From: a virus
Strand: one strand, 5' to 3'
DNA length: 64,000 nt
IMG/VR virus record: IMGVR_UViG_3300025118_000006
Span: 1-64,000 of that record
Position numbers and translations under genes: made by a program. The first letter of the stretch is position 1. Each line of letters begins with the position of its first letter. Below are positions 9,049 to 21,143 of this stretch, one piece after another. The notes beneath the pieces are model-generated. The model did no database searches and was not told the origin of the DNA. It saw only the letters and a program-made list of their open reading frames with translations.

Positions 9049-9318
9049 ATGACTAAGCGAAAAGCAAAATTGATTGAAGACGCTCGGGCCGCTGGCTTTG
9101 AGGTCAACGAGGGCACGCAAGGCGAGTGGCATTTCGAGCGATGGAGCAAACACAAGAAGTCTCGCTACGGCAACGGTGGCCCGCGACTTCTTGCCGGGAT
9201 GACTCTTTACGAGTATCCCGGCACTGCGATCTCAAAGATGTGCGACCTTGTCGATGCCATTGGCATTCAGAGTTATGCACAGATGCGTTCAGTGCTGGGC
9301 TTGGGCAAGGAGGTTTAA
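9049..9318 (+). CDS. Small hypothetical protein
   Basis: An 89-residue basic product whose N-terminus (MTKRKAKLIEDARAAGFEV) and central region (GEWHFERWSKHKKSRYGNGG) suggest a nucleic-acid-associated role, though no family is recognised. TTGGAG eight bases ahead fixes the ATG at 9049; the frame is open further upstream only through the promoter. It is first of four small genes ending at 10310. Confidence 0.65.
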   Translation: MTKRKAKLIEDARAAGFEVNEGTQGEWHFERWSKHKKSRYGNGGPRLLAGMTLYEYPGTAISKMCDLVDAIGIQSYAQMRSVLGLGKEV

Positions 9319-10455: not shown

Positions 10456-11844
10456 ATGGACCCAAAAGCGTTTCCAAATTCGCTACAGGCTGAGCAGGCG
10501 ATTTTAGGCACAGTATTATTAGACCCTCAAACATACATTCTCATTGGTGAGAAGATATCCCCAGACGATTTTTTCAAGACCGCACACGGTGTCATTTGGC
10601 AGGCCGTCAAGAAGGTAGTGAAGGACGGTCGGAATCCAGACGCTACCGAGGTTATCGACCGGCTAACCCTCGCACATGAACTCGATGTTGTCGGTGGTGC
10701 GACATACGTGATGGAACTACTTGACCATACGTGCGTGCCAGTCATCGCTGAACAATATGTAGACATAATCAAAGCGCATTCGCTTCGTAGACAATTAATC
10801 CTAAACGCACACAAAATTGCGAAGGCTGCTAGGACCGAAGAGGCCCCGGACTCCGTTGCGGCAACCGCGATCCAATCGCTCTTGACGACCGTCGAGGACC
10901 GGGATGAGCCCGAGGCCAGACCAGCCGCCGACATCGTTACCGAGCGCCTCGCTAAAACGAAGGAAGCATTGGAACGAGAAGAGAGCAGCATCGGAATTCC
11001 TAGCGGTTACGATAAGTTAGACGAACTCACTCTTGGATTTCACGGTGGAAACTACATTGTAGTGGCGGCTCGACCGGGAATGGGAAAAAGCGCGTTCGCC
11101 CTAAGCCTATCGCTTAACGCAACACGAAAAGATAGATCTGTCGCATTCGTGTCCCTTGAGATGTCCGAAGAGCAGATGGCAGACCGGCTCATGGCGATGG
11201 AGTCGGGTGTGTCTATGCAGAACATTAGGCGAGGGGATATCAGCGAATACGATGTTGGTAGACTTGAGAAGGGCGCTAGGAATATCCAGCCTCTCCCGCT
11301 GTACATCTCAGTCCAGACCAGAATCAATATCGATGGGCTTAGGATGTTCGCTCGTCGAATGAAAATGCGTAACCAATGTGACATGCTTATCATCGACTAC
11401 CTCCAGCTAGTAATGCCCAGGAAAGGCTTTGGCAATCGAGAACAGGCGGTAGCTGATATGAGCCGGACCATCAAGGCTATCGCTCTTGAGCTAGACATCC
11501 CCATCATCGCGCTGGCTCAACTTAATCGTCAGGTTGACGGGAGGGCTAGTAAGCGGCCTATACTCTCGGACCTGCGAGAGTCTGGCTCAATCGAGCAGGA
11601 TGCTGACGCCGTTATGTTCCTGTATCGAGATGAGGTCTACGACCCGAATACTCAGGACAAAGGGAAGGCTGAAGTTATTGTAGCAAAGCAGCGCAATGGC
11701 CCAACCGGAATCGTCACACTTGACTTCGATGCTGAACGTAACATTTTTAAGAACGAGAATCCTTACATTCCAAATCATTCCTATTCACACACTACTACTA
11801 CCCAGGCCCAAGTTTGGGCCAATCGCTATGGAGATGACAGATGA
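10456..11844 (+). CDS. dnaB: Replicative DNA helicase (DnaB family)
   Basis: The 462-residue product matches DnaB throughout. It has an N-terminal primase-interaction domain (PNSLQAEQAILGTVLLDP at the start), a linker helix, and a RecA-like C-terminal domain from about residue 175 with Walker A ARPGMGKSAF (about 205), SLEMSEEQM, Walker B LIIDYLQLV (about 310), the motif SDLRESGSIEQDADAVMFLYR and AKQRNGPTG. It unwinds DNA at the replication fork as a hexamer. GGGAAGGACACACAC provides the ribosome binding site. It overlaps the next gene by four bases and stands upstream of the initiator and loader candidates. The normal family length is about 450-470 residues, so it is complete. Confidence 0.96.
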   Translation: MDPKAFPNSLQAEQAILGTVLLDPQTYILIGEKISPDDFFKTAHGVIWQAVKKVVKDGRNPDATEVIDRLTLAHELDVVGGATYVMELLDHTCVPVIAEQYVDIIKAHSLRRQLILNAHKIAKAARTEEAPDSVAATAIQSLLTTVEDRDEPEARPAADIVTERLAKTKEALEREESSIGIPSGYDKLDELTLGFHGGNYIVVAARPGMGKSAFALSLSLNATRKDRSVAFVSLEMSEEQMADRLMAMESGVSMQNIRRGDISEYDVGRLEKGARNIQPLPLYISVQTRINIDGLRMFARRMKMRNQCDMLIIDYLQLVMPRKGFGNREQAVADMSRTIKAIALELDIPIIALAQLNRQVDGRASKRPILSDLRESGSIEQDADAVMFLYRDEVYDPNTQDKGKAEVIVAKQRNGPTGIVTLDFDAERNIFKNENPYIPNHSYSHTTTTQAQVWANRYGDDR

Positions 11845-12320
11845 CCCAGCCAATTGACCTTTCACCAAGACCCCAGCTTTCACCAGAAGAGGCCGCAGTC
11901 GTAAACGCAGCCCAACAGCTTGTTCCTATCTACCAAAAAATGGCCGAAGCGGGACTCGTTGACGGTGAAATAACACTGAACGCCATCGTGCTTACAGCTA
12001 CCCGAATCGGTATCGACACGATGATAAACCACGCTATTTCGCAGGGTTACATGGAAGACCCTCGCGTTGCCGCAGCCGCCGAAAGCGCAAGCAAAGAGGG
12101 CTACATGGGTGACCTTGAACGGCGCGATACCGAGGCCGCCAACCAGACCGAAGAGGAAGAGGCCATTGCCGAAGCCGATGCCGATGAGCTTATGGAAATG
12201 GACAGCGATGCCGTTGAGGAGGCCGCCAAAGACCTGTGCCCACCGACTGACCTTGCAGAGCTTCCAGAGCCCTCCGAGGCACTTTCACAACCGCTTGACA
12301 ACGTGGCAGAGCAAGCGTAG
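11841..12320 (+). CDS. Acidic hypothetical protein
   Basis: A 159-residue, very acidic protein, coupled to dnaB by ATGA overlap. The N-terminal 80 residues are predicted helical (EEAAVVNAAQQLVPIYQKMA). The C-terminal half is an Ala/Glu/Asp-rich low-complexity region (EEEEAIAEADADELMEMDSD). A DNA-mimic or chaperone-like role in replication can be imagined from charge and position but is not shown. Confidence 0.65.
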   Translation: MTQPIDLSPRPQLSPEEAAVVNAAQQLVPIYQKMAEAGLVDGEITLNAIVLTATRIGIDTMINHAISQGYMEDPRVAAAAESASKEGYMGDLERRDTEAANQTEEEEAIAEADADELMEMDSDAVEEAAKDLCPPTDLAELPEPSEALSQPLDNVAEQA

Positions 12321-12325
12321 AAACG

Positions 12326-12369
12326 AGTGATGGGCGGTATGCGTGGGAAGGGACGCGCCGCCCATCACT
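12326..12369 (+). other. Long perfect hairpin in dnaB-initiator intergenic gap
   Basis: A 12-bp perfect stem, AGTGATGGGCGG (12326-12337) with CCGCCCATCACT (12358-12369), plus an inner GCGT/ACGC pairing in the 20-nt loop. No T run follows, so it is not a standard terminator. It could be an mRNA processing or stability element, or a protein-binding site near the origin. Confidence 0.7.
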
Positions 12370-12390
12370 ACAAGCTAAATGAGGTAAGCC

Positions 12391-13476
12391 ATGACCAGCG
12401 AAAAGGTATGTGTTTTTCGGCCCTGGAGAGCGTTTCAGGGGGCACACATCCCGATGGTCATCCTAACTGCTAACGACCTAAGCCCAGGCGCAAAGTTGCT
12501 ATGGGCGTTACTAGCTAAATATGCCGGGGAGAACGGTGCAGCGTACCCCAAGCAGCGCAAACTAGCCGAAGACATGGCCGTGAACATCAAAACCCTACGC
12601 AAGAGGCTCGAAGAGCTAACCAGCAAGGGCTACATAGTTCAAAGTAGAGACAGGGGTGACCGACGGGCACACAAGCCGTTTAATTATCAGTTCATCTGGA
12701 GAGACGAGTTTGAACCCGGACTTTTAAGGCCGTTGTCGGCATTGCGCCGGGTTGAAGTGGAGGTCCATAGGGATGGTACTCCACTCGAAGTCCACAAGGG
12801 TGGCACTCCAGAAGAAAACCCCACGGGTGGACCTCCAATCGAGAGCCCCACGGGTGGTACTCCTATCGAGTACCATACGGGTGGTACTCCAGAGCAGAAT
12901 GAGTTGCCTGAAATCGAGGCCCTCGAAAACCATACGGGTGGACCTGCGGATGTCCATACGGGTGGTTCTCGAATTAATAGGAGTCAAGAGATTCAATTAA
13001 GAGAATTAGAACAAAACCCCCTAACCCCCTTGCAGGGGGAACCTTCGGCTGAAGATGATTGGCCGGGTTTTCCATTTGAAGAGATACGCGAAGCGTACAA
13101 CTCTGTAGCGAAGGTCGAGGGGTGGGTCGTGATGCGTAAGCGCGAGCGTCCACCCAGGGGTAAGCGTGAGCATAAAGTCATCCGAGAGTTGCGTGCCCAG
13201 TGGAAACGCCACAAATCCTCTGTATGCGAGGTTTTGGATGTTTCGGGTACAGAATGGTTCGAGAGGTACTTTCAGGCGTGTAGAGGCTATGTTACGTGGG
13301 ATTGGAGGCCACATCTTGAGTATTGGGCGAGGCTAGATACAGAGGAGGCTATTTTGGACCGCAAGAATAGTGTCTCCCAATTTCCTTCTTCTTCTGGTAG
13401 ACTGGGGGCAGCTTATCAATCGCTTATGAACGCTGCCGACCGAGTAACTGAGATGCAGGAGAGTGAAAATGGCTAA
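12391..13476 (+). CDS. Replication initiator, lambda O-like, with embedded iterons
   Basis: The 361-residue product has an N-terminal helix-turn-helix region (LLWALLAKYAGENGAAYPKQ, KLAEDMAVNIKTLRKRLEEL, about residues 30-85) as in phage O-type and DnaD-type initiators. It is followed by a low-complexity linker (about 120-195) of repeated HTGGTP-like hexads. The C-terminal part (about 215-345) contains basic and aromatic helices ending in RGYVTWDWRPHLEYW. The linker's DNA is a seven-copy iteron array followed by an AT-rich tract, as in lambda O. Position between DnaB and a loader candidate supports an initiator that binds its own gene. Confidence 0.72.
   Translation: MTSEKVCVFRPWRAFQGAHIPMVILTANDLSPGAKLLWALLAKYAGENGAAYPKQRKLAEDMAVNIKTLRKRLEELTSKGYIVQSRDRGDRRAHKPFNYQFIWRDEFEPGLLRPLSALRRVEVEVHRDGTPLEVHKGGTPEENPTGGPPIESPTGGTPIEYHTGGTPEQNELPEIEALENHTGGPADVHTGGSRINRSQEIQLRELEQNPLTPLQGEPSAEDDWPGFPFEEIREAYNSVAKVEGWVVMRKRERPPRGKREHKVIRELRAQWKRHKSSVCEVLDVSGTEWFERYFQACRGYVTWDWRPHLEYWARLDTEEAILDRKNSVSQFPSSSGRLGAAYQSLMNAADRVTEMQESENG
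12765..12971 (+). repeat. Seven iterons, candidate replication origin
   Basis: Copies of CCATACGGGTGGTACTCC begin at 12765, 12792, 12819, 12846, 12873, 12930 and 12954. The first five have an exact 27-bp period; the sixth is offset by 57 (two periods plus 3) and the seventh by 24. They are translated as a H(K/T)GGTP-like repeat inside the initiator linker. Confidence 0.72.
12971..13017. other. AT-rich tract next to iterons (possible unwinding element)
   Basis: About 47 bases of low G+C (GAATTAATAGG ... ATTCAATTAAGAGAATTAG ... ACAAAACC) lie directly after the last iteron, then a short CCCCC/GGGGG palindrome at 13025-13039. Iterons followed by an AT-rich, easily melted stretch is the arrangement of the lambda origin. 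Confidence 0.55.
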
Positions 13477-14005
13477 CCCTAGAACCATAGCTTCCGCGAT
13501 AACACGCCTAATTGCAGCCGGGTTTAGACCTCCTGCGGGCATAGATATGAACGATCAAGAAGGTCAGACTGCCTTCATCGCTGTTTGGTCTGATGCGCTT
13601 TCAGACATCGAAGACCACGAGTTGAATTCGGCGGTGCGAGCTTTTATTAAAACATCGATGGAGCCTTGGTTCCCGGTGCCCGCAAAGTTGAGGTCGTTGG
13701 TACCTCGCGTGAGTCTGTCGATAATAGATGACTCAGCAGATGCTTTTAGTGAAGTGCTGTCTTTGGTTGGTCGCTTCCACCACTACAAGCACCCGTCGCT
13801 TAAAGACTTGGATACGAATCCAATCCGCGCTCGCGCAAAGTCGAGGGCCATTAAGTCTGTTGGTGGTTGGGAGAGGATATGTGAAAGCAGGTCAGGTGAC
13901 CGTGCGCTCATGTCAGCTTTTCGCCAGTCGTATAAGACATCGGCTGCTGCTGCTACAGCTACAGCCTTGGAGAGTGGTGGCTCGAAGATGTTGGGAGTCG
14001 GCTGA
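13469..14005 (+). CDS. Probable helicase loader (G39P / lambda P-like)
   Basis: A 178-residue product from the ATG at 13469 (GTG at 13463 also possible), overlapping the initiator gene. The N-terminal two thirds show the pattern of phage helicase loaders of the G39P type: helices with a conserved Trp (FIAVWSDALSDIEDHELNSA) and then a Pro-containing end (SMEPWFPVPAKLRSLV). The C-terminal part has RAIKSVGGWERICESR and a basic FRQSYKT. Its place right after the initiator and close to dnaB agrees with a loader that brings DnaB to the origin. Sequence support is modest. Confidence 0.62.
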   Translation: MANPRTIASAITRLIAAGFRPPAGIDMNDQEGQTAFIAVWSDALSDIEDHELNSAVRAFIKTSMEPWFPVPAKLRSLVPRVSLSIIDDSADAFSEVLSLVGRFHHYKHPSLKDLDTNPIRARAKSRAIKSVGGWERICESRSGDRALMSAFRQSYKTSAAAATATALESGGSKMLGVG

Positions 14006-14370
14006 TGGTTGGAAAGGATTCTTTCGCAATCGTAAAAAAAGTTGCGCTTTTGGCCGCAATTCTTGGGGTGTCGGCTGTAAATTCGAGCTATTCGCACACT
14101 TCTTGGCACGATGCTTACGTTATGCATAAGTGCGAAACTTGTCCAGACTGTTGCGTATCCGCGCACAAAGAAGAGCCAATGGATATCGCGTGCAGTTTTT
14201 TGATGGACCTCACAGCCCCTTATCCAATCGATACCGCAGATTGGTGTGACAGACCTGGGTTCATGGAGCCGGATCAGCGGGTGTGTTGTGTTTGGGACGA
14301 AGAGTATATGTGGTGCACGGGCATTCAGAACCCATGTAGCGGGTGGGAGTACATTGAAGATGGCTGTTAA
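14005..14370 (+). CDS. Secreted Cys-rich protein
   Basis: The 121-residue product starts with a basic N-region and hydrophobic core (VKKVALLAAILGVSAVNSSY) that fit a signal peptide. The mature part carries eleven Cys, several as pairs (KCETCPDCC, VCCVW), suggesting disulfide bonds outside the cytoplasm. It is encoded between the loader and small terminase genes. No family is recognised. A superinfection-exclusion or envelope role is possible but only inferred from export. Confidence 0.65.
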   Translation: MVGKDSFAIVKKVALLAAILGVSAVNSSYSHTSWHDAYVMHKCETCPDCCVSAHKEEPMDIACSFLMDLTAPYPIDTADWCDRPGFMEPDQRVCCVWDEEYMWCTGIQNPCSGWEYIEDGC

Positions 14371-14929
14371 GAAGACACCAGCGAAGCGAAAGAAGAAGGT
14401 AGTTCAGAAGCGGAACACAGGCCGAAGAACAGCCGCCGAGGTTGAGATTCTGAAGTCGCAGGCGAAGACCGCAATTCTCCGAGGTGCCACCGCACATGAA
14501 TGCTGCAAAAATATGGGCGTGGACCGGAACACCATGAACAGGTGGCTCGTAGACATACATGCTGAGTGGAGCCAGAGTGTAGAGCCGGAACGATTAGAGG
14601 CCGAGCGAGCGCGACTGATAGCAGAGGCAAGGGAGGTTCAAAGAGACGCTTGGACCTTCGCCAATTTATTGATTGATGAAACTCAGGCCAGAGAAAGAAG
14701 GGGCTGGATGGGGTTGGTGCTGGCAAGCATCAAGCAGCAGTCGGAATTGCTTGGTCTGAATAAAGTTAATATCCAGGCTATAAGCACAGAAATCAACATG
14801 CAGCAAAACAACATAAACCAAGCCGACATGAGGCTACTCGACAAGATACCAGACAACGTGCTAGACAGCCTGGGTACCGCAGTAGCGAGAGCCATGAGTG
14901 ACAACGTCGTTGTCCTCGACACAGATTAG
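14360..14929 (+). CDS. Putative terminase small subunit
   Basis: A 189-residue product from the ATG at 14360, overlapping the previous gene by 11 bases. A Lys/Arg-rich N-terminus (KKTPAKRKKKVVQKR) precedes a helix-turn-helix region (LKSQAKTAILRGATAHECCK, NMGVDRNTMNRWL, about residues 33-65), a central long helix and a C-terminal helical region. This layout (basic HTH plus oligomerisation helices) is that of small terminases, which bind pac or cos sites and hand DNA to the large subunit encoded at 19506. The separation from terL by the leftward cluster is unusual, and another DNA-binding role cannot be excluded. Confidence 0.58.
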   Translation: MAVKKTPAKRKKKVVQKRNTGRRTAAEVEILKSQAKTAILRGATAHECCKNMGVDRNTMNRWLVDIHAEWSQSVEPERLEAERARLIAEAREVQRDAWTFANLLIDETQARERRGWMGLVLASIKQQSELLGLNKVNIQAISTEINMQQNNINQADMRLLDKIPDNVLDSLGTAVARAMSDNVVVLDTD

Positions 14930-16189: not shown

Positions 16190-16414
16190 TCATTCCTCGT
16201 TTCGTTTTTGAAGCTCTGAAATAAGCTCCGAGAATCCATCCAGTTCGTCATAGAGCTTACGGACCTTCTCTGCAAGCACCTTTGTTTCGTCTGTTAGTTT
16301 CCAGACTGCCTCTTGATGCTCTGCGTAAGTGTGTCCAATCGCAGCACAAAGCTGCTCAGTGGTTAGGTCACTGGGTATCTTTGCGGTACCGTCTTCGTCC
16401 ATAAATATTATCAT
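16190..16414 (-). CDS. Small hypothetical protein
   Basis: A 74-residue acidic product from the ATG at 16414, which overlaps the stop of the upstream gene (ATGA). An AGAGG box eight bases before supports this start. The C-terminal half is a heptad-like helix (LTDETKVLAEKVRKLYDELD), probably a coiled coil. It is the last gene of the leftward transcript starting at promoter P4. Function unknown. Confidence 0.65.
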   Translation of the reverse strand: MIIFMDEDGTAKIPSDLTTEQLCAAIGHTYAEHQEAVWKLTDETKVLAEKVRKLYDELDGFSELISELQKRNEE

Positions 16415-16776
16415 TGCATACACCTCTCAGGTACGAAGAGTACGTCGCCAACCAACTCGAATCCGACCCGGTCGGATGCTGATAGGTTCGGGGGAAGCTC
16501 TTTGAGCCTGCCATCCTCGTTGAAGACCGCCACCCATCGAGGTGCGTACTTCTTGACCTCCACATAGCCTCCTACGTGCCTCTGAAGCTCGTCTAAGGCG
16601 AAGTGTTTGCCATCCACGGGTCGAACTATGTCTATCGAGCCAGTGGCTCGATAGAGGAAAGCCTCAGTCGATTTAGAACGCGCCATCATATCCTCCGTAA
16701 TCTTGTAACAATCTTTGCAGACCTCGTTACCAGCGGGGATGCGAGCCGCGCAACTAAAGCACACTATTTCTGCCAT
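16411..16776 (-). CDS. Zinc-finger protein with DUF3846-like domain
   Basis: A 121-residue product with an N-terminal zinc motif (VCFSCAARI ... EVCKDC, two CxxC pairs, about residues 5-25). It is followed by a DUF3846-type domain: FALDELQRHVGGYVEVKKYA, then WVAVFNEDGRLKELPPNLSA and a closing VGDVLFV. DUF3846 occurs in many phage and plasmid early regions, without a known function. The start at 16776 follows GGAGG that overlaps the stop of the upstream gene. The fusion of a zinc finger to DUF3846 could be a regulator of host or phage processes, by inference. Confidence 0.7.
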   Translation of the reverse strand: MAEIVCFSCAARIPAGNEVCKDCYKITEDMMARSKSTEAFLYRATGSIDIVRPVDGKHFALDELQRHVGGYVEVKKYAPRWVAVFNEDGRLKELPPNLSASDRVGFELVGDVLFVPERCMQ

Positions 16777-16778
16777 GA

Positions 16779-17228
16779 TTAACCTCCATCCGACTTGTAT
16801 TTTAACACCCCGAAGCGCAAAGACCACTCTTCTGTGGTCACTCGCTCTGGTAGCGCGTAGCGGCGGCCCTTGTAGTTGATGGCGATGATGTCACCGGCCA
16901 CTCCAACCGGATCGAACCGGATTGGCTCACCCTCGGGCACATCGATAGCCAGCGTTTTAAAAAGCTCTTCGACGTTGAGCCGATATTTTAGCTGCCTTGA
17001 AAGAGCCTCTCGCTCCGCGTACCGGCCTTCAAGCCGATTAATTAACTCATCTCTTTTACTCATTGCGCCCTTAGCCTCCGTGCTCGGGTTCATCGATAGC
17101 CTAAGCTTGTCGGCTATATAAAATTGGAGATCCGAGGTAAGGCTTTTTGGGATGTTGGCGACCGCCTTATCTCTGTCGTAGTCGTGTTCTGACATGAGTC
17201 GGTCTGCCCATATTTTATCTTCAGTCAT
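16779..17228 (-). CDS. Hypothetical protein
   Basis: A 149-residue product; the ATG at 17228 follows AAGGAGCACAACGATC. It begins with a charged helical half (KIWADRLMSEHDYDRDKA) and has a long amphipathic helix (KRDELINRLEGRYAEREALS), then a beta-rich C-terminus (DIIAINYKGRRYALPERV). Nothing suggests a membrane location. It is the third gene of the P4 transcript. Confidence 0.65.
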   Translation of the reverse strand: MTEDKIWADRLMSEHDYDRDKAVANIPKSLTSDLQFYIADKLRLSMNPSTEAKGAMSKRDELINRLEGRYAEREALSRQLKYRLNVEELFKTLAIDVPEGEPIRFDPVGVAGDIIAINYKGRRYALPERVTTEEWSLRFGVLKYKSDGG

Positions 17229-17242
17229 GATCGTTGTGCTCC

Positions 17243-17641
17243 TTACGCAAGACATTGTTCTTTTTCATCGACCCATGCTTCTGATCGAGGGGCCACCATC
17301 GCGGGCAGAACCGTGAGGCTCGGAAAGTGTTCAGCGAGGAAAGTGTCGATCACAGCCATCGCCGCTTCTTTTGTGTCTTCGATACCGCTGGTGCAGCGAC
17401 CATCGCCGTCGGGGCAGCTTTTGTAGCCCCAACCATTGGTTCCACCGTGCGCGTCTCCGAAGCCGCCTAACCAAGAGGTCACGATTGCGACCTGCTTCCC
17501 CATCCCATTGACTCGGACGAATTTCGGTGGATAAGAAGAATCGGGTGCCCACGGAAGAACCACCTTGGCTAAGACCTTCTGGGCTTCACGTATGGAACTG
17601 GGGTCTTGGGTGTCGAAGGATTTAAGGTTATTAGTGACCAT
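17243..17641 (-). CDS. Hypothetical protein
   Basis: A 132-residue product from the ATG at 17641, behind AAGGAGGCTGTG. It has a Gly-rich central segment (GGFGDAHGGTNGWGYKSC) with two Cys (SCPDGDGRC) and otherwise alternating hydrophobic strands and helices. No family is recognised. It stands second in the P4 transcript, ten bases after the first gene. Confidence 0.65.
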   Translation of the reverse strand: MVTNNLKSFDTQDPSSIREAQKVLAKVVLPWAPDSSYPPKFVRVNGMGKQVAIVTSWLGGFGDAHGGTNGWGYKSCPDGDGRCTSGIEDTKEAAMAVIDTFLAEHFPSLTVLPAMVAPRSEAWVDEKEQCLA

Positions 17642-17651
17642 CACAGCCTCC

Positions 17652-18119
17652 TTATTTCTGGCAATTCAGCAGCTTGGTGTTGCCGTAAATGTCACGAATG
17701 ACCGTGAACGGTGAGGTGTTTGGCTCATCAGGAACGGCCTCAATAAGGGCAGTCTTCACGTAGGTTTCTTCGCCTGTCTCGGCGCAGAAAATCTTTGTCA
17801 GGCCGCCGGTCTTGTTTCCGTAGCCAAGTTGAGCAGCGGTGCGAGCGCGGAGCACGGTGTAGGTCCGGTCGCGATGAAGCATAACCGACACCGACCTTGG
17901 CGCGAGCCGTGTCTCGCCAGCACTGTTCAGTCCATGCGAGCGGGGGCTGTCGTACCAAGCGTTACGCTCGTCTTGCGTAATAGGTCGGCTGGAATGAACT
18001 GTTCCGTCCATGTCGTTGCCATAGGTTTCGAGGGGATACTCAAGCTCGCCACCCTCTTTGTTGGTGAAGCACTTGGCTACGTTTAATCGAACGATGGTAT
18101 TTTTGAGAATCTTAGTCAT
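17652..18119 (-). CDS. Hypothetical protein, first gene after promoter P4
   Basis: A 155-residue product. TTGGAGACAGAAA directly before the ATG at 18119 defines the start, although the frame is open far upstream through the promoter. The protein is beta-rich with many Thr, Arg and Tyr residues (SVSVMLHRDRTYTVLRARTA) and two Cys. No membrane segment is present and no family is recognised. Confidence 0.66.
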   Translation of the reverse strand: MTKILKNTIVRLNVAKCFTNKEGGELEYPLETYGNDMDGTVHSSRPITQDERNAWYDSPRSHGLNSAGETRLAPRSVSVMLHRDRTYTVLRARTAAQLGYGNKTGGLTKIFCAETGEETYVKTALIEAVPDEPNTSPFTVIRDIYGNTKLLNCQK

Positions 18120-18143
18120 TTTCTGTCTCCAATCAAGATTTGC

Positions 18144-18202
18144 TAACGTCACATTCAGGATTATAGGCATAGCCCTGGGGGCACGGTCAAGTACTTTATT
18201 AC
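18144..18202 (-). promoter_or_regulatory. Leftward early promoter P4 (class B) with TGACGTTA box
   Basis: On the minus strand: TTGACC (18190-18185), TATAAT (18165-18160, 19-nt spacer; CTATAA at 18 nt), box TGACGTTA (18151-18144), then TTGGAGAC for the gene starting at 18119. The 17 bases ending in the -35 core (GTAATAAAGTACTTGAC) match P5 with two differences. Confidence 0.8.
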
Positions 18203-18501
18203 ATAAAAGTTGAGAAAAAGAACTCGAACTCTGCCGACTCAGCCGCAGCAAGTCGATTAGCGAGTTCATTTTTTTCGTCTTCATCCTGCAATTCACGCGC
18301 AATCGCACCCCATGAGCAGTCGCCAGATTGGCATTCTGCCTTACCCTCGCGACGGGTAACGCGCTCAATAGCACGCTCTTCAGCGCCCATAGATGCGCGG
18401 GAGCAGGAGGAGCCGGGGGAGCCCTTACCTGGGTCACCCCAGAAAGAGCCCCGGCGGCCTCGGTGTCGAGGGACTAATGATTTAGAAGTAGATGCAGCCA
18501 T
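18199..18501 (-). CDS. Hypothetical protein
   Basis: A 100-residue product; GCGGAGGTAAAGTAATC before the ATG at 18501 is a strong start signal. The N-terminal half is Gly/Ser/Arg-rich and probably disordered (RHRGRRGSFWGDPGKGSPGS). The C-terminal half is an acidic helix (EDEKNELANRLAAAESAEFE) ending in a run of Phe. It has four Cys. The last gene of the P5 transcript, its stop lying within promoter P4. Unrecognised. Confidence 0.62.
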   Translation of the reverse strand: MAASTSKSLVPRHRGRRGSFWGDPGKGSPGSSCSRASMGAEERAIERVTRREGKAECQSGDCSWGAIARELQDEDEKNELANRLAAAESAEFEFFFSTFM

Positions 18502-18503
18502 GA

Positions 18504-18725
18504 TTACTTTACCTCCGCTTTGCGAGCACGCTTCCATTTGGGCTTTGTAGGCTCTCTCAGTTCGCAGCCCTTTGGGCATTTCATCTCCGTAAGACCCTCC
18601 ACGAGAGGAACGCTACCCCACCCGCCACAGACGCACTCGTTGTGCATCCACGTGGGCCGTGGGTATGGAAGGTTTGCTCGCCATGGAATGGTCGCTGACT
18701 CTGTTCTTATTGTGTTCGTATTCAT
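18504..18725 (-). CDS. Small zinc-ribbon protein
   Basis: A 73-residue product with four well spaced Cys (NECVCGGWG and MKCPKGCEL, about residues 29-55), forming a zinc-ribbon pattern, and a basic C-terminal tail (KPKWKRARKAEVK). It starts at TAATG overlapping the upstream gene, behind GGAGGTTAAG. Nucleic acid binding or a host-protein interaction is likely for this kind of protein but unproven. Confidence 0.68.
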   Translation of the reverse strand: MNTNTIRTESATIPWRANLPYPRPTWMHNECVCGGWGSVPLVEGLTEMKCPKGCELREPTKPKWKRARKAEVK

Positions 18726-18907
18726 TACTTAACCTCCACTGGCTCGGCTACGGCTTTGCCAAGCGTCCATACACCGCCCATCGACTCGACCATCTCGTAT
18801 AGTGAGCGGTGGAACTTGTAGCGGCAATCATCAACGCTATTCGCGATGTACGTTACGTTTTCTTCGCCACTGTTGACGGGCGCAAGGTCTGTGATTCTAA
18901 CTTTCAT
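18725..18907 (-). CDS. Small hypothetical protein, first gene after promoter P5
   Basis: A 60-residue product from the ATG at 18907 behind TTTGGAGAAAAAA. It is a compact alpha/beta-looking sequence (MKVRITDLAPVNSGEENVTY and following). Upstream in-frame codons run through promoter P5 and were discarded. Its stop overlaps the next start. No family is recognised. Confidence 0.65.
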   Translation of the reverse strand: MKVRITDLAPVNSGEENVTYIANSVDDCRYKFHRSLYEMVESMGGVWTLGKAVAEPVEVK

Positions 18908-18923
18908 TTTTTTCTCCAAATAA

Positions 18924-18982
18924 ATTAACGTCACCCGATAAGTTATAAGCCCTACCAAGCCTGTAGTCAAGCACTTTACTAC
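18924..18982 (-). promoter_or_regulatory. Leftward early promoter P5 (class B) with TGACGTTAAT box
   Basis: On the minus strand: TTGACT (18970-18965), 17-nt spacer, TATAAC (18947-18942), box TGACGTTAAT (18933-18924), then TTTGGAG. The upstream context GTAGTAAAGTGCTTGAC parallels P4. Confidence 0.8.
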
Positions 18983-18999
18983 AAGTTTGTGAAAAAAAG

Positions 19000-19176
19000 T
19001 TAATAACCGAGCAACAGCGCGACAGTGCCTATTGCGACAACGGCGCAACTAATGGTGACGATAGGGTCAAAAACTATGCGCCCAGTGAATGGGCTCTTGT
19101 GGGTGTAGAACGACGGTTCCTTCGCGTGAGGGTTTACCGTCCATTCACCACAGTGGTTACATTTAAGCCTTTCCAT
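19000..19176 (-). CDS. Small zinc-ribbon, tail-anchored membrane protein
   Basis: A 58-residue product from the ATG at 19176; an in-frame ATG at 19203 would add nine residues. The N-terminus has CNHCGEW and the C-terminus a single membrane segment (TISCAVVAIGTVALLLGY) reaching the end of the chain. It overlaps the end of the upstream gene by 14 bases. A membrane-tethered small regulator is a reasonable picture, not a demonstrated one. Confidence 0.55.
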   Translation of the reverse strand: MERLKCNHCGEWTVNPHAKEPSFYTHKSPFTGRIVFDPIVTISCAVVAIGTVALLLGY

Positions 19177-19414
19177 AACAGCCCCCCGTTCGCTCACGAG
19201 CATCGAACTCGCTTGCTGCTCTGATCAAGTGCGTGGCAAGGTTACGTGCTTGGGCAGATGACAGGTTGAGGCTTGGTCCTGGGTGCTCGATACGGACGGT
19301 GAAGAGGTTGCCTTCATCATATCCACCACAGACGCTCACGATGCCGTTAAGTGTGTTTATACCAGTACATTCCAGGCCCTCAAGCTCCGGCTGATTCATT
19401 TCATTGCTAGTCAT
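19163..19414 (-). CDS. Hypothetical protein, first gene after promoter P7
   Basis: An 83-residue product with GAGGACACCTTT before its ATG at 19414. It has a Gly/Cys segment (TLNGIVSVCGGYDEGNLFTV) and a helical C-terminal half (SAQARNLATHLIRAASEFDA). No family is recognised. It is the first leftward gene next to the divergent terminase gene. Confidence 0.65.
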   Translation of the reverse strand: MTSNEMNQPELEGLECTGINTLNGIVSVCGGYDEGNLFTVRIEHPGPSLNLSSAQARNLATHLIRAASEFDARERTGGCYGKA

Positions 19415-19452: not shown

Positions 19453-19494
19453 AATTTACAGCCCGTGGGGAAGATTGTCAAGTGGTTGCGAACG
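19453..19494 (-). promoter_or_regulatory. Leftward early promoter P7 (class C)
   Basis: On the minus strand: TTGACA (19481-19476), 17-nt spacer, TAAATT (19458-19453). Its upstream part is identical over 21 bp to P6 (19474-19494 versus 6297-6317). The element overlaps the upstream-most possible start codon of the terminase gene (GTG at 19482). Confidence 0.75.
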
Positions 19495-19505
19495 AACACA
19501 GTGAT

Positions 19506-21143
19506 ATGGCCGCCAACATACTAGCTACGACAGCAGGTCGCAGGCGAATGTCTACGGCCTCTTTAATATACTTTGACACATACTATTGCGGCATGGCCTA
19601 CGCGGAACACAGGCAGAGGTGGTTGGACATTCTAGCGACCGCATATCGCAAGGGTCAGTCATCACGGGATGACCAGTCTTTACTGCTTCTGGCCCCTCGA
19701 AAGCATGGAAAGACTGAGCTTGCAGTTACATTCACGCTCTGGCTTATCTGCATGAACCGGAACATTCGTGTGCTTTGGATTGGTTCCAAAGCTGACTTGG
19801 CGAAGAAGCGTTTGGCGAGGTGTAAGGCCCTGCTAGAGAGCGCAAGAGTCCAGAATGACTGGTGCGGTGAGCCTGAAACCGGGTTCGGGCCTTGGCGTGG
19901 GGATTCTGGCGATGTTGAGTGGGACAAGAGCCGTATCCGAATCACGCGCAGCGCGGCACTTATTGACCCAACGATTGAAGCAGTCGGTATGCGTGGCGCA
20001 ATCACAGGTGGTCACTTCGATGTTATTATTCTGGATGACGTGGAGGACGAGAATTCGGTGCGCTCGGGTAGCGTGCGCGAGCACACGAGAGAGTGGTTCG
20101 AGGGAACGCTTACACCGATGTTAAATCAGGGTGGGCTCATGCTTTGCATTGGTACCCGAAAGCATTTCGACGATCTTTACGGTCGTTTGGATGAAAATCC
20201 CATGTGGCAAATCATCACCGACAAAGCCATTATGCAATGGCCTGATAAGTATGAGCCGACGTACGAGGAAATCGACGGCAAGGATATATTCACAGGCGTT
20301 TCGGTGGAGGGTGAGGCGAAGGTTTTGTGGCCTGAACAGCGACCGTTCGAGTACATGATTCGTCAGAGAATTAAGATGGGTTCGACGATTTTCGCTCGCG
20401 AGATGCAGAACGAGGTAGTGGATGATGAGACGGCCCAATTCAGGCTTGCTTGGCTGAAAGACGCTATGGCGAACGGGTCGAACTATAGTCTTTACGAGTT
20501 CCCGCCAAACGTGGACATCGTAGACATCGTGCAAGGCTGGGATCTCGCGCTAGTTACAGATCAAAGAAAGGCAGACGAGGGCGATAGGGACTTCACAGTA
20601 GGCGTGACGTGGGGTCGAGATGCGAAGGGAAATCGGTATCTTCTAGGAATGAGGCGGGAGCGAGGTATCACCCCAGGAACATTGCGGAACTCCATCATCA
20701 AAGAGCATGAACGCTTTGCTGGAAAGGTTCGAGCTATTGCTATTGAGAAGAACAGCTTTGGCGAACTCCACTTCCTCGGACTTCAGAAAACCACAGATTT
20801 ACCTCTAAAGGCACACATTACGGGGCGAAACAAAACCGACTCATGGGAAGGCGTACCGTCGATGGCGGCGCTTTTTGAAAACGGCAAGGTTCACTTCCCA
20901 AGCAAGACCCTGCGCGACAAGGAGATCATGAAGGACGTGATCGCGGAATTCCACGGCCTTGGCAGGGAGCGACACGACGACATCGTAATGTCTATGTGGA
21001 TAGCTGAAACCGTGCTACGCAAAGGTGGCTTCCAGTATCGTGCCGCGCAGGGAGACGACCTAATAGAGACGGATATTGTTGGCGCAGACGACTTCTCTCA
21101 TTTCGGTGGCGGGTTCGACGACCTACCCTTCCTTGACGATTGA
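19506..21143 (+). CDS. terL: Terminase large subunit
   Basis: A DNA-packaging motor protein with an N-terminal ATPase and a C-terminal nuclease. Visible motifs: Walker A LLLAPRKHGKTEL, Walker B FDVIILDDVEDE, coupling region LCIGTRKHFDD. The RNase-H-type nuclease acids are at VQGWDLAL, AIEKNSFGE and RHDDIVMSM. Frame from the GTG at 19482 gives 553 residues; I prefer the ATG at 19506 because 19474-19494 is a promoter element duplicated at P6. No start has a good ribosome binding site, and ATG 19548 is a third option. It translocates DNA into the prohead through the portal encoded at 29296. Confidence 0.93.
   Translation: MAANILATTAGRRRMSTASLIYFDTYYCGMAYAEHRQRWLDILATAYRKGQSSRDDQSLLLLAPRKHGKTELAVTFTLWLICMNRNIRVLWIGSKADLAKKRLARCKALLESARVQNDWCGEPETGFGPWRGDSGDVEWDKSRIRITRSAALIDPTIEAVGMRGAITGGHFDVIILDDVEDENSVRSGSVREHTREWFEGTLTPMLNQGGLMLCIGTRKHFDDLYGRLDENPMWQIITDKAIMQWPDKYEPTYEEIDGKDIFTGVSVEGEAKVLWPEQRPFEYMIRQRIKMGSTIFAREMQNEVVDDETAQFRLAWLKDAMANGSNYSLYEFPPNVDIVDIVQGWDLALVTDQRKADEGDRDFTVGVTWGRDAKGNRYLLGMRRERGITPGTLRNSIIKEHERFAGKVRAIAIEKNSFGELHFLGLQKTTDLPLKAHITGRNKTDSWEGVPSMAALFENGKVHFPSKTLRDKEIMKDVIAEFHGLGRERHDDIVMSMWIAETVLRKGGFQYRAAQGDDLIETDIVGADDFSHFGGGFDDLPFLDD

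Follow-up and report, generated by a model that had tools for sequence, protein, structure and literature searches.

A probable iteron-type replication origin within the initiator gene of an uncultured phage

Replication genes and their surroundings

The window analyzed here (i.e., the whole 64-kb stretch of DNA) comprises bases 1–64000 of the 78,499-bp virus record IMGVR_UViG_3300025118_000006, whose source phage is uncultured and known from metagenome sequence only. Its plus strand carries the gene of a 361-aa replication initiator (12391–13476). The N-terminus of this protein is an HTH_36 winged helix (residues 29–82; Pfam E 8e-14), and the protein matches phrog_270, phrog_1032, and other PHROGs annotated as 'replication initiation protein'. 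Upstream on the same strand, the phage encodes its own replicative helicase of the DnaB family (10456–11844; Pfam DnaB_C, E 1.9e-91; phrog_19, E 9.3e-108). Between the two genes lies an acidic 159-aa ORF (11841–12320), for which PHROG and other profile searches returned no convincing family match. The ORF that adjoins the initiator on its other side (13463–14005, plus strand) is, by position, a candidate helicase loader. Its PHROG matches were confined to families of unknown function (phrog_9804, E 4.6e-11), Pfam and NCBIfam gave no match and the PDB no convincing one, and these searches identified no G39P-like helicase loader beside the initiator.

Farther downstream are a small-terminase-like gene (14246–14929), which starts ~1.3 kb beyond the repeat array described below, and the large terminase gene (19482–21143). 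A block of minus-strand ORFs (16190–19414) separates the two, and both the GC skew and the AT skew are turned over its length. The original prediction had offered cumulative GC skew as a check on an origin in the initiator gene; across the whole 78.5-kb record, no turning point was seen at that gene, and the check was uninformative. We also note that the DnaA-box consensus TTATNCACA has its sole exact match in the whole record at 9273–9281, ~3.5 kb upstream of the iterons, which is probably a chance occurrence.

The leader of the initiator gene is structured. In the gap that separates the 159-aa ORF from the initiator gene, a perfect inverted repeat has 12-bp arms and a loop of 20 bases (12326–12369), and the leader as RNA (12318–12392) folded far better than its shuffles (z -5.3). 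No Rfam match was found for this leader and no T-run follows the inverted repeat, which is possibly a control element.

With regard to kinship, the origin was described in the original prediction as lambda-like by convergence. Our profile searches did not support convergence, and they did not prove kinship either, since the initiator matches O-like profiles weakly (phrog_345, E 1.3e-4, residues 34–298; phrog_391, E 3.9e-4) while comparing it directly with lambda O by profile gave no significant result. Lambda O likewise matches phrog_345 and phrog_391, and these shared matches are a pointer to distant kinship with lambda O, at least in the winged helix. No Pfam match to Phage_rep_O was detected in the initiator. 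A structure predicted from the single sequence had a confidence too low for use (pLDDT 35).

Iteron array within the initiator gene

Seven copies of an 18-bp unit, the first five with an exact 27-bp period, had been predicted, and the positions and spacings bear this out. On the plus strand, the copies start at 12765, 12792, 12819, 12846, 12873, 12930, and 12954 (spacings of 27, 27, 27, 27, 57, and 24 bp), and the array spans 12765–12971, all of it inside the initiator ORF (12391–13476). Each copy agrees with the consensus CCATACGGGTGGTACTCC at 14–18 of 18 positions. The array received the top Tandem Repeats Finder score of the 64-kb window (107, vs. 58 for the next). Within the 78.5-kb record, the iteron site is unique to the array: when a weight matrix built from the seven copies was run over all 78,499 bp, the copies scored 25–30 bits and the best site outside the array scored 9.6.

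The 18-bp core is indeed repeated seven times, but the true unit is longer. Together with GA at positions -5/-4, it becomes a 22-bp imperfect dyad with a pattern of roughly GARnnCC...GGnnCTC, in which 10–18 of the 22 positions are symmetric. Symmetry at the dyad axis was 60%, compared with at most 40% at the other axes tried. The first four plus-strand dyads are located at 12760–12781 (iteron 1; core 12765–12782, 14/22 positions symmetric), 12787–12808 (iteron 2; core 12792–12809, 12/22), 12814–12835 (iteron 3; core 12819–12836, 12/22), and 12841–12862 (iteron 4; core 12846–12863, 14/22). Iteron 5 (12868–12889; core 12873–12890) is the consensus copy, with 18/22 symmetric positions, and as a single strand its folding was equaled by just 2 of 200 shuffles. 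Iterons 6 (12925–12946; core 12930–12947, 10/22) and 7 (12949–12970; core 12954–12971, 12/22) complete the array on the same strand. Such dyad iterons are as expected for lambda-type iterons that bind a dimer, and the initiator may bind them in this form.

Constraint on the iterons at the DNA level

Because the only close relative that we found is 99.88% identical and none was found at an intermediate distance, constraint was assessed by a synonymous-site test within the gene. The seven protein copies were held fixed and codons were drawn from the phage's own usage (20,000 draws). Third codon bases of the iterons are pairwise identical at 75%, compared with an expected 29%, and none of the 20,000 draws reached 75%. 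Four of the seven codon columns have a third base that is invariant across all seven copies. The third base of codon 1 is always C (amino acids V, V, N, S, Y, N, V), that of codon 3 is always G (R, K, or T), and that of codon 6 is always T (T, P, or S).

Among the five copies with the 27-bp period, third-base agreement was 76% in the iteron and 35% in the spacer codons. Since the spacer codons agree less than the iteron codons of the same 27-bp unit, recent duplication alone is insufficient to account for the agreement. These results are evidence that the iterons are conserved as DNA sequence.

AT-rich stretch beside the array

The AT-rich DNA of about 47 bases that was predicted to follow the array within the coding sequence is present (12969–13015; 72% AT), inside the ORF at 12391–13476. 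Within the initiator gene, the 40 bp of lowest stability begin at nt 582 (12972), immediately after the last iteron core, whose final base is nt 581. Among the non-overlapping sites of the whole record, the 40-bp stretch that starts at 12972 and the 50-bp one from 12967 each rank second in instability.

This instability is set at the DNA level. The stretch at 12970–13017 was less stable than all of 20,000 synonymous recodings of its peptide (20,000/20,000), and when the recoding test was run along the gene in 44 stretches, the most extreme value fell at the AT-rich position. We regard the stretch (12970–13017) as a putative DNA unwinding element that adjoins the iterons and would melt there.

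The small palindrome of the original prediction also exists (CCCCCT-TGC-AGGGGG, 13025–13039), but it is not significant against shuffled sequences, of which 19 of 200 folded equally well as DNA and 36 of 200 as RNA. We rejected it as a significant element, and a role for it is unsupported.

Near copy and search for relatives

The near copy (L003; IMGVR_UViG_3300006738_000045) differs from the window at 12 of 9,934 positions (99.88% identity over 9.9 kb). Five of these 12 differences are found within 37 bases (12957–12993) that cover iteron 7, where two of the changes fall, and the AT-rich stretch. Such a cluster never arose in 200,000 random placements, and recombination over a short patch at the origin may be its source. 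The near copy has a slightly better score for iteron 7 (26.8 vs. 25.5 in the window), and the least stable 40 bp are less stable there (-42.1 vs. -43.3 kcal/mol in the window). This is weak evidence that the changes fit a kept function.

Searches for further relatives of the initiator returned none in INPHARED (tblastn) and only the near-identical L001/L003 contig in the viral contig collection, which was also the only contig matched in a pattern search for iteron pairs. A hit in the genome contig collection (L014) was rejected as a chance match inside an unrelated long ORF. Phages with a related large terminase (TerL) were mostly without an HTH_36 match, and many of these records are fragments.

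Comparison with other phages

Lambda (gene O; PMC5043065), SPP1 (oriL in gene 38; PMC6316719), and TP901-1 and Tuc2009 (PMC8965321) are established cases of an origin within the initiator gene, and one has been argued for 80alpha (PMC5499656). Lambda O binds as a dimer to iterons that have the form of inverted repeats, whereas plasmid iterons are bound by monomers and generally show helical phasing (PMC5043065). Our array fits the lambda type in its dyad symmetry and in the lack of phasing of its 27-bp spacing. As noted in the original prediction, a 27-bp period does not amount to a whole number of helical turns. However, this is not odd, as the four lambda iterons are spaced by 20, 24, and 23 bp. 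Like lambda O, the initiator gene encodes an N-terminal DNA-binding domain, followed by iterons of inverted symmetry and then directly by the 40 bp of lowest stability in the gene. The two systems differ in that the lambda iterons are four in number and of unrelated sequence, that O belongs to Phage_rep_O in Pfam and our initiator to HTH_36, and that lambda uses the host DnaB while this phage encodes its own.

From the literature, the replication module of SPP1 (G38P initiator, G39P loader, and G40P DnaB-type helicase) resembles that of our phage in the direct repeats and AT-rich unwinding element within the initiator gene and in the phage DnaB-type helicase (PMC6316719). It differs by having a second origin of similar organization (oriR), whereas our iteron occurs at one place only, and by its G39P loader, for which no similar protein was identifiable in our phage. 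TP901-1 ORF13 and Tuc2009 Rep are also comparable as replisome organizers that bind repeats within their own genes (PMC8965321), and the TP901-1 protein has an HTH_36-like N-terminus. The C-terminal domains of these proteins belong to other families (DnaB_2, Rep_Org_C), and their repeat sequences are different.

The same measurements were applied to other phages. In lambda O, the four annotated iterons occupy nt 349–433 of the gene, and its 40 bp of lowest stability follow at nt 437–476; this is the known origin. Two uncultured phages gave comparable layouts. One of them (L008) has an HTH_36 protein gene near a distantly related DnaB gene; its three site copies contain GGGTGACAC and are 81–100% identical over 21 bp, with repeats that end at nt 447 and least stable 40 bp that begin at nt 444. 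The other (L049) has a TerL that is 49% identical to that of the window and an initiator beside a DnaB-like gene, with an HTH_36-like match (E 4.8e-4) below the cut-off of Pfam. The region L049:1877–2115 holds six 21-bp iterons (97% matches) containing GGGACACAGTGTCCC, after which comes a perfect 12-bp tandem repeat, TCTGACTCTGTA, inside the same initiator gene. The least stable 40 bp are 64 nt beyond the iterons. For the initiators of both phages, no further relatives were found in the viral contig collection. In TP901-1 and Tuc2009, repeats were detected in the gene, and the least stable 40 bp were not beside them. Taken across lambda O, the two uncultured phages, TP901-1, and Tuc2009, the layout is recurrent and the adjacency of the least stable stretch is common, though not universal, while the iteron sequences are unrelated.

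Interpretation as a replication origin

It is highly probable, in our assessment, that the region 12760–13017 is the replication origin of the phage, located within the gene of its own initiator. An iteron origin on the lambda plan had been predicted for this gene, and the DNA-level constraint, the uniqueness of the site, and the layout shared with lambda O argue well for it. The sequence itself displays the initiator gene with its DnaB neighbor and the unique dyad iterons, along with DNA-level constraint and adjacent instability; from these features we infer that the initiator binds the iterons, that the AT-rich stretch melts, that the helicase is loaded, and that the region acts as an origin.

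Three other explanations need to be weighed against an origin. The array could be a protein repeat only, that is, a flexible GGTP-rich linker that arose by recent in-frame tandem duplication and has no role as DNA. As such a linker would have it, every spacing is divisible by three and the repeat can be seen in the protein. Yet synonymous positions are fixed in the iterons and not in the spacers of the same unit, third bases stay constant despite changes of amino acid, and the adjacent AT-rich stretch is likewise extreme at its synonymous positions, so we consider a linker without a DNA role to be very improbable.

Replication might alternatively start elsewhere, with the initiator-bound iterons serving autorepression or copy-number control by handcuffing. 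It is common for winged-helix initiators to bind control sites of their own, and just before the initiator gene stands a structured leader whose 12-bp stem is perfect. We nonetheless give a purely regulatory array little credence, given that the sites lie in the middle of the gene rather than at a promoter, that they directly adjoin a stretch that is among the least stable in the record, and that no second copy of the site is found elsewhere in the record as a possible origin. A packaging (pac) or partition site would be in keeping with the small-terminase-like gene (14246–14929) that starts ~1.3 kb downstream. This is extremely unlikely considering that the array is in the initiator gene near that of DnaB and beside an unstable stretch, and not in the terminase gene.

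For an origin at this site, we propose that a dimer of the initiator would bind the seven dyad iterons, encoded by the initiator's own linker, through its N-terminal winged helix. The assembled complex could then open the AT-rich stretch that adjoins the last iteron, and the phage DnaB (10456–11844) would be loaded on the opened strand, perhaps aided by the product of the ORF at 13463–14005.

This class of origin has been known since lambda, and the iteron sequence is new. As a tentative and rather doubtful generalization, HTH_36 initiators of uncultured phages may keep a fixed gene plan, with the winged helix first, then the iterons in the linker, and then an unwinding element near the last of them, while the iterons themselves are exchanged in full from one phage to another. 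The amino acids of the linker would in that case be dictated by the DNA-binding sites rather than by what the protein does. For the phage studied here, the analysis provides an uncultured virus with a well-defined candidate origin and an initiator with a new iteron sequence. More broadly, a simple rule (iterons in the linker, with the least stable stretch close after the last of them) could help to call origins in metagenomic phages.
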